The notes below the pieces were generated by a model that worked only from the letters and a program-made list of their open reading frames with translations, did not search any database and had not been told where the DNA came from. Both the position numbers and the translations under genes were made by a program. Shown piece after piece: positions 35,621-39,813 of a DNA stretch of 64,000 nucleotides (position 1 is its first letter; each line of letters opens with the position of its first letter). The DNA comes from a candidate division NC10 bacterium CSP1-5 (lineage in GTDB: Bacteria > Methylomirabilota > Methylomirabilia > Methylomirabilales > CSP1-5): the NCBI GenBank assembly GCA_001443495.1, contig LDXR01000003.1, positions 163,087-227,086 of the forward strand, read 5' to 3'.

Positions 35621-36664
35621 TCATTGTTGAGACATGGCGTGCTTATTCTGCAGGTCTTTGAGGTAGCCAAAACCCACCAGCTTGCGTCCTTCCTCATCCC
35701 ACAGGCGAAACGTGAGCGATTTTGAGCTAGCGAATAATGTAATGGGTTTCACTTCCTGGAACATAGGGTTCTCTTCGTGGCACCTTTCCAGGTTGTAATT
35801 GGGAATGCGGGGGCTCAGGTGATGAATGTGGTGGAACCCTATGTTGCCAGTGAACCACTGCAGAATCTTGGGCAGTTTATAGAATGAACTGCCCCGTAGG
35901 GCCAGGGTCACGTAATCCCAATGTTCGTGACGCTCCCAGTAGACCCCTTCATACTGATGCTGCACGTAAAACAACCACACCCCAGCCGCGCTGGCAATCA
36001 TTACAATGGGCAAGTGCACCGATACGAATGCCTTGATACCAATAGTGACACCCATCAGGGCCACAATGCCCAAGATCGCCAGATTTGTCCAACACACGCT
36101 GTGGCGCTCTCGCTTGCTTGCGGTTGGCCCTGCAAAACGATGCCTAATCAGGAAGATGAAAAGGGGCCCAATAACAAACATTACCAGTGGATTGCGGTAC
36201 AGCCGATACTCAAGCCGCCTGCGCGGCGACAACTCCAGGTATTCCTTCACCGTTAACGTCCAGATATCCCCCACCCCCCGTCGGTCCAAATCGCCAGCGG
36301 TGGCATGATGCATCGCATGTTCGCGTCGCCAGCCAAAATAGGGCGTAAGCGTGAACACACCCGCAATAAACCCCCCAAGGTCATTGGCTTTCTGGGATTT
36401 GAAAAACGCAGCGTGCCCGCAGTCGTGAAAAATGATAAAGATGCGCACCAAAAAGCCTGCTGCGAGAGCCGACAATGCCAGCGTAATCCAATAGGAAACT
36501 TCCAGGCTGCGATACATCAGGTACCACAGAATGCAATAGGGGATGACTGTGTTGACAACCTGCCACACACTGCGCTGCAGATCCGGATTCTCATACTTGG
36601 CCACAGCCTGCCGCCAGGACACTTTGTTCGTTGCGAGGTTATCTGCTGTTGGAACTGAATTCAT
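35621..36664 (-). CDS. acyl-lipid fatty acid desaturase (omega-6/Delta12-like)
   Basis: 347 residues, an integral membrane di-iron desaturase. Three histidine boxes are visible: HDCGHAAF (near residue 79), HAMHHATAGD (HxxHH, near 115) and HHIHHLSP (near 283). Membrane segments surround residues 38-75 and 155-225. It would introduce a double bond into membrane acyl chains. The gene is visibly less GC-rich at third codon positions than its neighbours, and lies on the opposite strand beside a tRNA gene, which suggests transfer. It follows the zinc-ribbon gene after 51 bp. Confidence 0.88.
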   Translation of the reverse strand: MNSVPTADNLATNKVSWRQAVAKYENPDLQRSVWQVVNTVIPYCILWYLMYRSLEVSYWITLALSALAAGFLVRIFIIFHDCGHAAFFKSQKANDLGGFIAGVFTLTPYFGWRREHAMHHATAGDLDRRGVGDIWTLTVKEYLELSPRRRLEYRLYRNPLVMFVIGPLFIFLIRHRFAGPTASKRERHSVCWTNLAILGIVALMGVTIGIKAFVSVHLPIVMIASAAGVWLFYVQHQYEGVYWERHEHWDYVTLALRGSSFYKLPKILQWFTGNIGFHHIHHLSPRIPNYNLERCHEENPMFQEVKPITLFASSKSLTFRLWDEEGRKLVGFGYLKDLQNKHAMSQQ

Positions 36665-36715
36665 GTCCTGTCTCCATGAAAAAAGTAGACGGGGAGGCCC
36701 ATTAAGTATGTCGCC

Positions 36716-36904
36716 CTACTTGATGAGCTGCGCACCGCAATCCATGCAATAAGTGTTCCTACGCCGCCGGCTCTCCACATGTTCTTCTTCGCTGCATTTC
36801 TTGACGATAATGTTCGCGCTTACCACCTCACCACAGTTCGGGCAGTACCGGACTGGGGCGTCGGCGCGCCTGTGATTCAGGTTCGGACACCATTTTCGCT
36901 GCAT
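36716..36904 (-). CDS. small double zinc-ribbon protein, unknown function
   Basis: 62 residues with cysteines at 6, 21, 24, 37, 53 and 56 and histidines at 11 and 42, so two CxxC ribbons separated by a basic, Arg-rich linker (ESRRRRN). The sequence is strongly hydrophilic and likely binds nucleic acid or protein. It lies between the S21-like gene and the desaturase on the same strand, suggesting one transcript. I know of no function. Confidence 0.7.
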   Translation of the reverse strand: MQRKWCPNLNHRRADAPVRYCPNCGEVVSANIIVKKCSEEEHVESRRRRNTYCMDCGAQLIK

Positions 36905-36944
36905 TGTGCTGATCCCCTGTCGATTTCACACACGCACTGCGCTA

Positions 36945-37133
36945 CTACCATCGCTCATCCTTGCGCCTCAGAGCCCGGCTGAGTTGTCGGCGGCGTCGAC
37001 GGGTAGCCTCTCGAATCTTGCGGCGCTTCCGCTCCCCCGGTTTCTCATAGTTCTGCTTCCGCTTCAGCTCCCGGAGGATCCCGTCACGAAGTACCAGGCG
37101 CTTCAAGGTCCGGAGTGCCGATTCGACACCCCC
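36945..37133 (-). CDS. rpsU: 30S ribosomal protein S21-like, N-terminus unresolved
   Basis: The frame reads GVESALRTLKRLVLRDGIL, then RELKRKQNYEKPGERKRRK and an Arg-rich tail ending at TAG 36945. This matches S21 (compare VALRRFKR...AG(V/I)L.E.RRR..YEKP). The usual first ~10 residues (a V.V.ENE type strand) are missing, and upstream in frame there is no ATG, GTG or TTG before a TGA at 37158-37160. The first canonical in-frame start is TTG 37106, inside the homology. A purine-rich SD-like stretch and an out-of-frame GTG lie upstream. A frameshift, a G-run sequence error or a decayed 5' end are all possible. Confidence 0.65.
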   Translation of the reverse strand, partial: GGVESALRTLKRLVLRDGILRELKRKQNYEKPGERKRRKIREATRRRRRQLSRALRRKDERW

Positions 37134-37231
37134 CTTTTCTCCCTTCCTCCCTCCCCCTCAGCGGCTCCAAGGGGAGCGTTTCCAACGTCCCGCGTGCCCG
37201 ATACCGAGGTTCTTCCACGCCATGGGGTCGT

Positions 37232-37272
37232 AAAAAAAGAGCCCTCAAAAGCTCGCGAAGCCTTTGGGGGCT
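37232..37272 (-). terminator. Rho-independent terminator or attenuator
   Basis: A 14-nt imperfect stem with a TCGCG-type loop, followed on the minus strand by TCTTTTTTT. It is the strongest intrinsic terminator in the tRNA-to-tadA region. Confidence 0.8.
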
Positions 37273-37317
37273 GTGAAAGCAACAAGAGTTGCGTTCGGTC
37301 GGAACCGTTGCCCACGC
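37232..37317 (-). ncRNA. short leader RNA with terminator (candidate attenuator of the S21 group)
   Basis: From the promoter at 37324-37352 transcription would begin near 37317. The RNA would contain the small hairpin GCAACTCTTGTTGC (37292-37279) and end in a strong terminator: AGCCCCCAAAGGCT pairs with AGCTTTTGAGGGCT across a TCGCG loop, then seven U residues. It is about 86 nt long and lies upstream of the S21-like gene on the same strand. It could be an attenuator, or an independent small RNA. Confidence 0.55.
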
Positions 37318-37323
37318 TTAATG

Positions 37324-37352
37324 ACCGTACAAGCGATCCCACGCGGTGTCAA
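37324..37352 (-). promoter_or_regulatory. sigma70-type promoter for the leader RNA
   Basis: A perfect TTGACA (37352-37347) is followed by a 17-bp spacer and TACGGT (37329-37324). The -10 is only moderate. Confidence 0.55.
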
Positions 37353-37525
37353 GAAAAATAACTGAGCGCCCCTCCTGATTGGCCCGAACCGCCCCTCGTT
37401 GCATTCCTTGAAGCGGCACCTCTGTCGTGTGCCCACAGGTCCTTGGGCTAAGCTGAATCGGCATGAGAAGAGGATACAGCATTGGCATAGAAAGTGCAAA
37501 AAAGGGGCGCGGGAGCGGCGTCTCG

Positions 37526-38503
37526 ATGAAAGCTGACAGACAGGGCCAAAGGCCGATGACGAGCGATGGAACGGGGGAGCTACCGCCGGGGACGATCCTG
37601 GCGGTGGATGATGACCCCAAAGCCCTCGGGACCTTTGAAACCTATTTGAAGGGGGCGGGGCTTGACGTCCTGACCGCCATGAGCGGAGAGCAGGCGCTCG
37701 GTGCCGTCAGGAGAGCGAGCCCTGACATCGTCCTCCTCGACCTCAGCATGCCCGGCATGAGCGGCCGCGAGGTGCTGCGGGAGCTCAAGGCGCGAAAGGA
37801 GACCAGCGACATCCCCGTCATCATCGTTACGAGCGTGGGCCAGATGGCCGAGAGGGAAAAAGCAATTCACGAGGGCGCCGATGACTTTCTGACAAAACCC
37901 ATCGGCCGGCGCGAACTCCTCATGCGGGTACGGACGCTCCTCAGACTCAGGCGCTTGCACCGGGATCTCGAGCGGACGCTCAGCTCCCTGCATGAGCTGG
38001 AGGCGGCCCGGTATGCTGGGGGGGCGGCTCACGATCTCCTCAAGGGCCCACCCTCGCGCTCCCCCTTGGCGACGATCCTCATCGTTGAGGACGAGCTGCT
38101 CGAACGGGCGATCTACGCTGACCTGCTCCGAGACCACGGCTACACGGTCCTGACGGTGCCCACGGCCCATCAGGCCCTCGAGCTCTTACGGTTCCAGAAG
38201 GTCGACGTCATTTTGGTGGACCTGGTGCTCCCGGGTATGTCTGGCCCCGAGCTCATCGAACGATTGAAGATCGTCACGCCAGACACGCCGGTGATCGTGG
38301 TCACCGGCCATCCCTCATCCCACAACGCGGTCACCGCCCTGAGGCTTGGCGCCTTTGACTTCATCATCAAGGGGTTCAAGAGCGAGGTCATGCTCCATGC
38401 CGTGAAGCGGGCGCTGGAAAAGCGGCGGCTCGAGCTCCAGACCCGGACCCTGCTCTACGAACTCAAGGCCAAGGTGGCTCAGCTTTCCGAACGGCAGCCG
38501 TAA
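37526..38503 (+). CDS. tandem receiver (REC-REC) response regulator without output domain
   Basis: 325 residues from ATG 37526 (a start at 37556 is also possible). REC1 has the acidic pair VDDD, phosphoacceptor Asp72 in LLDLSMPG and Lys124 in LTKPI. A coiled linker (about 135-170) follows. REC2 has VEDE, the acceptor in LVDLVLPG and the Lys in IIKGF, where the usual Pro after Lys is Gly. The C-terminus is a short helical tail. No DNA-binding or enzymatic domain is present, so it probably works through protein contacts. No kinase is adjacent. Confidence 0.85.
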   Translation: MKADRQGQRPMTSDGTGELPPGTILAVDDDPKALGTFETYLKGAGLDVLTAMSGEQALGAVRRASPDIVLLDLSMPGMSGREVLRELKARKETSDIPVIIVTSVGQMAEREKAIHEGADDFLTKPIGRRELLMRVRTLLRLRRLHRDLERTLSSLHELEAARYAGGAAHDLLKGPPSRSPLATILIVEDELLERAIYADLLRDHGYTVLTVPTAHQALELLRFQKVDVILVDLVLPGMSGPELIERLKIVTPDTPVIVVTGHPSSHNAVTALRLGAFDFIIKGFKSEVMLHAVKRALEKRRLELQTRTLLYELKAKVAQLSERQP

Positions 38504-39455: not shown

Positions 39456-39644
39456 TTATGAGCGTCGAGCGCTGAGTGATGAGGACGGCCCTCAGTCCTC
39501 ATTGCTCTTAGCTGTTCTGAAGAATCCTTGGCCGTGCTAGATGGGGAGCTAGCGGTGCCCTGAACCCGCAATCCGCTATAGCGGGATTGAACTCCTGCCC
39601 GAGGTCCTGGATCTCCGGGTGATCTGCCCGGGGTTGGGGCGTCG

Positions 39645-39745
39645 AGGGTCGGGTCCTGCGCAAGGGGGATCCGTGAACCCCGTCAGGTCCGGAAGGAAGC
39701 AGCGGTAAGCGGTCTGCCTCCTGTGCCGCGGGGGCGCCCGGCCGG
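39645..39745 (+). ncRNA. ffs: signal recognition particle RNA (4.5S type)
   Basis: The Ffh-binding tetraloop/asymmetric-loop core GTCAGGTCCGGAAGGAAGC lies at 39682-39700, followed by AGCGGTAAGCGG and GTGCCG as in bacterial 4.5S RNA. GGTCGGG (39647-39653) pairs with CCCGGCC (39737-39743), which sets the approximate ends. The RNA lies just before dnaX, a common order. Confidence 0.92.
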
Positions 39746-39813
39746 AGCCTTCGGTCCTGGGTAAGTGCCGGCGGTTGGGATCGACGGCAGGTGCACGGCC
39801 AAGGATCTTCTTT

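Follow-up and report, generated by a model that had tools for sequence, protein, structure and literature searches.

In Anabaena, the rbpA1 gene carries a cold-regulated 5′-UTR (Sato & Nakamura 1998 and Ehira 2005, cited in PMC6091082; PMC9333190). The cyanobacterial protein Rbp1 is required for cold adaptability and the rbp 5′-UTRs contain conserved boxes (PMC9333190; PMC6091082, citing Sato & Nakamura 1998). In Escherichia coli, CspA, CspC and CspE are described as melting the terminator at metY-rpsO, which results in antitermination (Bae 2000, as summarized in PMC11648934). Paralogues of ribosomal protein bS21 are able to change which mRNAs get translated (PMC10931766).

Here we describe a leader within a 64-kb stretch of DNA (the window) from G000, a Candidatus Methylomirabilota MAG of 2.77 Mb and 99.7% completeness, and not a cyanobacterium. 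The leader family resembles the cyanobacterial rbp system in that a conserved 5′-UTR precedes an RRM-protein gene and in that RRM and S21 genes adjoin in related Methylomirabilota loci. It differs in that the leader is a compact promoter-hairpin-terminator element, and the likeness is one of placement; moreover, unlike in the cyanobacterial rbp/rpsU cluster, the S21 gene of the window is followed by genes for a small Cys/His protein (ZR) and a desaturase (DES) and by no RRM gene, RRM and S21 being neighbours only in paralogous S21-RRM operons. The cyanobacterial comparison is made as an analogy only. As at metY-rpsO, there is an intrinsic terminator at which RNA chaperones could increase read-through, but here it lies before the first gene, the genes behind the leader family are often RNA chaperones themselves, and the acting protein is putative. 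The order of promoter, first hairpin, terminator and structural gene is that of trp-type attenuators; unlike in these, no conserved antiterminator was found and no leader peptide was identified before the terminator.

The leader and the S21 gene behind it

A sequence-only reading had proposed that a TTGACA promoter, a short hairpin and a terminator with seven U residues precede three genes, and the coordinates and folding of these elements were confirmed. The promoter is sigma-70-like and occupies 37324–37352 of the minus strand, with TTGACA at 37352–37347, a 17-nt spacer and TACGGT at 37329–37324. The −10 box is weak and a plain consensus scan did not recover the promoter; we credit the call because the element is conserved in G005 and in the leaders of the genus, not because of its consensus score. 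Folding placed a 5′ hairpin, GCAACTCTTGTTGC (GCAAC-TCTT-GTTGC), at 37279–37292 and, together with conservation, an intrinsic terminator at 37232–37272, of which the 14-bp stem covers 37272–37240 and the run of seven T 37238–37232. The minimum free energy of the terminator was −19.4 kcal/mol (z = −4.2), with 0 shuffles equally good, and a scan of the 64 kb of the window found it to be one of two strong terminators on the minus strand.

We considered whether it is the terminator of the upstream gene and ruled this out: the neighbour (37463–38503, plus strand) is divergent, and the terminator at 37272–37232 can therefore stop only transcripts from the local promoter. This neighbour, which is conserved next to the leader in both G005 and G002, encodes a product with two receiver domains in the domain search and no recognised output domain. 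A consensus scan of the 105 nt between the T-run and the S21 remnant found no promoter-like site. The arrangement expected of an attenuator, that is, a promoter (here called from sequence and conservation), then a terminator, then a start codon on the same strand, is what we observe. The leader matched none of the 4227 Rfam models, even at a relaxed threshold. A terminator-like site before DES, at 36702–36689, was dropped because it is not conserved in G005. Elsewhere in the window, a large bacterial SRP RNA lies at 39532–39798, near several tRNA genes.

The first gene behind the leader (36945–37127, minus strand) is an rpsU paralogue, one of three in G000. Its membership in the bS21 family, as originally read, is well founded (PF01165, 56.2 bits against a cut-off of 27; TIGR00030, 52.1 bits, above cut-off), but it is not an intact gene. 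The match covers positions 9–55 of the family model, and unlike full bS21 (TIGR00030/PF01165) the window copy lacks the N-terminus. Compared with G005 (JAHFDE01), the sister species that is the nearest relative of G000, approximately 180 nt over the S21 start are deleted, and the window gene is without about 31 N-terminal codons and the ribosome-binding site (RBS), both of which are present in G005. There the gene starts MSEYRRRDDQGREAGGNPPQRRPLEVIVDDRG (MSEYRRRDD...) behind a GGAGG-type RBS, and the start is also intact in G002 (MSDYRRRDD...). The sole ordinary in-frame start left in the window is a TTG at 37103, which has no clear RBS. The remaining 60 residues are the same as in G005, with nine synonymous and no non-synonymous codon changes. 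Since all changes in the body are synonymous, the loss of the start would be either recent or an assembly error. As it stands, the window S21 is probably non-functional or defective.

Distribution of the leader

The leader and the S21-ZR-DES order are the same in G005, where 48 nt around the promoter and a 63-nt block of hairpin and terminator are identical to those of G000, while the spacer and flanks differ. A DNA search found the leader in six of the seven genomes of the genus. It precedes S21 in G000, G005 and G002, a gene that we take to encode an FKBP-type PPIase in G006 and, at two places, in G003, and RRM-FKBP in G001; the name FKBP comes from recognition of the sequence, with no profile search behind it. 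When these leaders were aligned, the promoter was the same and at the same place. Most related leaders also have a first hairpin, but its sequence differs between them, and in G078 and G079 it is unclear. The stretch behind the terminator in G001, G003 and G006 (GAGGAACC..ATG) can be aligned with that of the window and G005, which suggests that S21 came behind a leader whose earlier partner was an RRM or FKBP gene. At L048, L049 and L050, the FKBP genes that follow the leader start MSSKRSVGILP, similar to the RRM start MVSKLYIGNLP, as though the deletion of an RRM gene had left its start joined to them.

A covariance model built from the seven genus leaders only was searched in 95 genomes of the phylum and gave two further full-length matches, in other families, each immediately ahead of an RRM gene. 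RRM loci were then located with PF00076 and 30 of them were read for leaders; eight, including both matches of the first model, had TTGACA, usually the first hairpin, and a terminator of the GCCCTCAAAG...CTTTGAGGGC type. A second covariance model (R2) added G015, G018 and G008, again all at RRM genes; its matches in G032 and G030 look like ordinary terminators. Together with G001, the leader is found directly before RRM genes in 12 genomes (8 + 3 + 1). Among the 30 loci read, many RRM genes have another leader or no visible terminator leader. The covariance searches of the 95 genomes show that the leader is not confined to S21 genes; its commonest place in Methylomirabilota is before a gene for an RRM RNA-binding protein, and this position is probably the ancestral one.

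At nine loci (G001, two in G003, G006, G092, G094, G015, G018 and G008) the distance from the T-run to the start codon is 28–39 nt, which leaves no room for a second promoter and an RBS, so that only read-through can carry transcription into the gene. Over 15 leaders, 92.7% of the terminator stem pairs are kept, and one pair shows an A-U/G-C exchange. In this wide set only the terminator stem was scored for covariation, hairpin 1 being left out because the alignment registers shift between groups. A classic attenuator with alternative 1:2, 2:3 and 3:4 pairings was considered, as arms of the RRM leaders are complementary by eye (CAAAGG/CCTTTG), but the duplex test gave no general support: arm-3 duplexes did not outscore shuffled sequences, G094 (L079) being the one exception, and a conserved antiterminator pairing was not found.

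In 198 genomes of another phylum, all three full-length matches lay before genes that we recognised from their sequence as presumably encoding CspA (E = 2.7e-5 to 6.5e-4). These three matches are nearly identical to one another, as are their genomes, and therefore count as one event, and the likeness may be convergent. The CspA-family leaders (L151-L153) have a promoter-proximal terminator, GGCCACAAAG...CTTTGTGGCC, followed by a T-run. Partial matches in this phylum look like ordinary terminators.

The S21-RRM operons, six in the genus (L052, L106-L110) and two in another genus of the order (L111, L114), carry a different promoter-terminator leader, TTGACA..TATAGT..ATTCTCACGG..GCCGCGAGGACTGAAGTCCCGCGGC-T-run, in which the ATTCTCACGG box is conserved within the genus. 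Its pattern CCGCGAGGAC...GTCCCGCGG (L052:3096-3230, L106-L111, L113, L114) is unlike the window leader in sequence; in L113 it accompanies an RRM gene alone.

The ZR and desaturase genes

As the sequence-only reading had it, the three genes of the window are co-directional on the minus strand with small gaps, which measure 40 nt (S21-ZR) and 51 nt (ZR-DES), and its notion of an attenuator-like leader before a likely polycistronic unit is supported by the recurrence of leader and gene order in G005. ZR (36716–36904, minus strand) has 62 residues and, as previously noted, six Cys; in the alignment these form two C-x4-H and two CxxC pairs (C6-x4-H11, C21xxC24, C37-x4-H42 and C53xxC56). The protein could bind two zinc ions, with the ligands possibly in cross-brace order. 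Its earlier assignment to the double zinc ribbon family does not hold, since the score against DZR (PF12773) was 18.9 bits, below the cut-off of 27.3. An AlphaFold model of moderate confidence (pLDDT 78.5) had no fold match in the PDB, and a viral search gave one weak and partial match.

Some genomes of the genus have several copies of ZR, with unrelated surroundings, and the gene is absent elsewhere in the phylum; a planctomycete and a deltaproteobacterium MAG encode relatives. Copies number one to four per genome in the genus and are dispersed (L018-L028, L020:4966-5148), for example after a cspA-like gene (G003) and between RelA/SpoT-like and recG-like genes (G003/G006). They keep the RBS and about 10 nt past the stop codon (TAGTGCGAC), as if ZR were copied as a gene-sized unit. 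Because this genus-level multicopy family occurs in many contexts, it is not safe to regard ZR as the new component of one pathway, as had been suggested.

DES (35621–36664, minus strand) is a membrane fatty-acid desaturase. The earlier call of an acyl-lipid desaturase agrees with PF00487 (106 bits, above cut-off) and with three His boxes, HDCGH, HAMHH and HHIHH; the match to NF052548, the Delta(5) desaturase DesA, was nearly full-length but below cut-off (471 against 500 bits). A close DES is found in six of the seven genomes of the genus and is truncated in G001. The frame is open and 90% identical to that of G005, with 29 synonymous and 34 non-synonymous codon changes, compared with 8 and 6 in ZR.

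In G004 and G001, ZR-DES follows a gene that we take, by eye, to be rplQ, and in G003 and G006 a decayed ZR precedes DES (alignments scoring 46 and 48, against 37 and 28 for the best shuffles), with no such leader before DES in these two genomes. S21-ZR-DES was seen only in G000 and G005, the contig of G002 ending inside S21. Given the rplQ contexts and the decayed ZR copies, ZR-DES is, as judged from gene order, the older unit, and its tie to the leader is recent, having been seen in G000 and G005 only. The expectation that relatives would share gene order and leader holds for G005; beyond this pair the leader stands before S21 in G002 and otherwise before RRM and FKBP genes and, in another phylum, CspA genes.

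Possible mechanism and significance

The reading we favour as reasonably probable is an attenuator-type leader of RRM-first origin, in which RNA chaperones would tune read-through into S21-ZR-DES under cold or stress. Transcription would begin just past TACGGT, at about 37317, yielding a hairpin RNA of approximately 85 nt, and most transcripts would stop at 37232. A variable fraction would read through to give one mRNA extending to about 35621. The signal is likely to be low temperature or stress, because the leader precedes genes of the cold-shock type, for RNA chaperones, a ribosomal protein and protein folding. Sensing could consist of the melting of the terminator by RNA chaperones (Csp/RRM), by analogy with E. 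coli metY-rpsO; a terminator-melting protein is the most economical idea because no antiterminator was supported and no Rfam family matches. As the S21 cistron is probably defective, ZR and DES would be the useful products in this genome. Cold regulation of the unit is plausible.

Alternatively, promoter and terminator may constitute an independent small RNA of about 85 nt, the genes being served by leaky read-through or other promoters and not regulated by the leader. The compact hairpin, complete in itself and ending in a strong terminator, and the lack of a conserved antiterminator would suit such an RNA, but the RRM and FKBP start codons lie immediately behind the leader at the nine loci, a similar leader stands just before CspA elsewhere, the downstream genes share one functional type, and the leader holds its place ahead of the gene while hairpin-1 and spacer sequences vary; we regard a separate small RNA as unlikely. 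Preservation before functionally coherent genes across genera, the second leader type before S21-RRM and the similar leader before CspA in another phylum also suggest regulation rather than constitutive attenuation, in which the terminator would set a fixed lower level from a strong promoter with no signal and no link to cold. This we consider improbable, although neither Rfam nor the antiterminator duplex test revealed a sensing element.

That a ribosomal protein gene lies behind the leader here might point to a bS21 autoregulatory leader or a metabolite riboswitch. Such a leader is very improbable: there is no Rfam match even at the relaxed threshold and no complex conserved fold, and RRM and FKBP genes carry the leader too, so that S21 is not the common factor. 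The unit of the window could also be a decaying remnant that has lost the S21 start and retains the leader as a leftover, as the deletion of about 180 nt and the changed codons in ZR (8/6) and DES (29/34) would allow. However, the leader blocks are identical to those of G005, DES is open and 90% identical, and the S21 body has only synonymous changes, which makes decay a quite improbable explanation.

A wider version of the chaperone-tuned attenuator is possible though doubtful: a portable family in which RRM and Csp chaperones would melt the terminators of their own genes and of further cold-shock genes (RRM, S21, FKBP, Csp and, here, a lipid desaturase), the module being swapped within the genus, with a second module before S21-RRM across Methylomirabilota.

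The attenuator-like leader exists and is more widespread than first thought, and the original idea of a three-gene cold operon is partly right. To our knowledge, the control of RNA-chaperone genes in Methylomirabilota is unstudied. The genes that share the leader, namely those for RRM, FKBP and S21 proteins and perhaps Csp, form a candidate regulon, which, if true, would link the desaturation of membrane lipids to the control of RNA chaperones.
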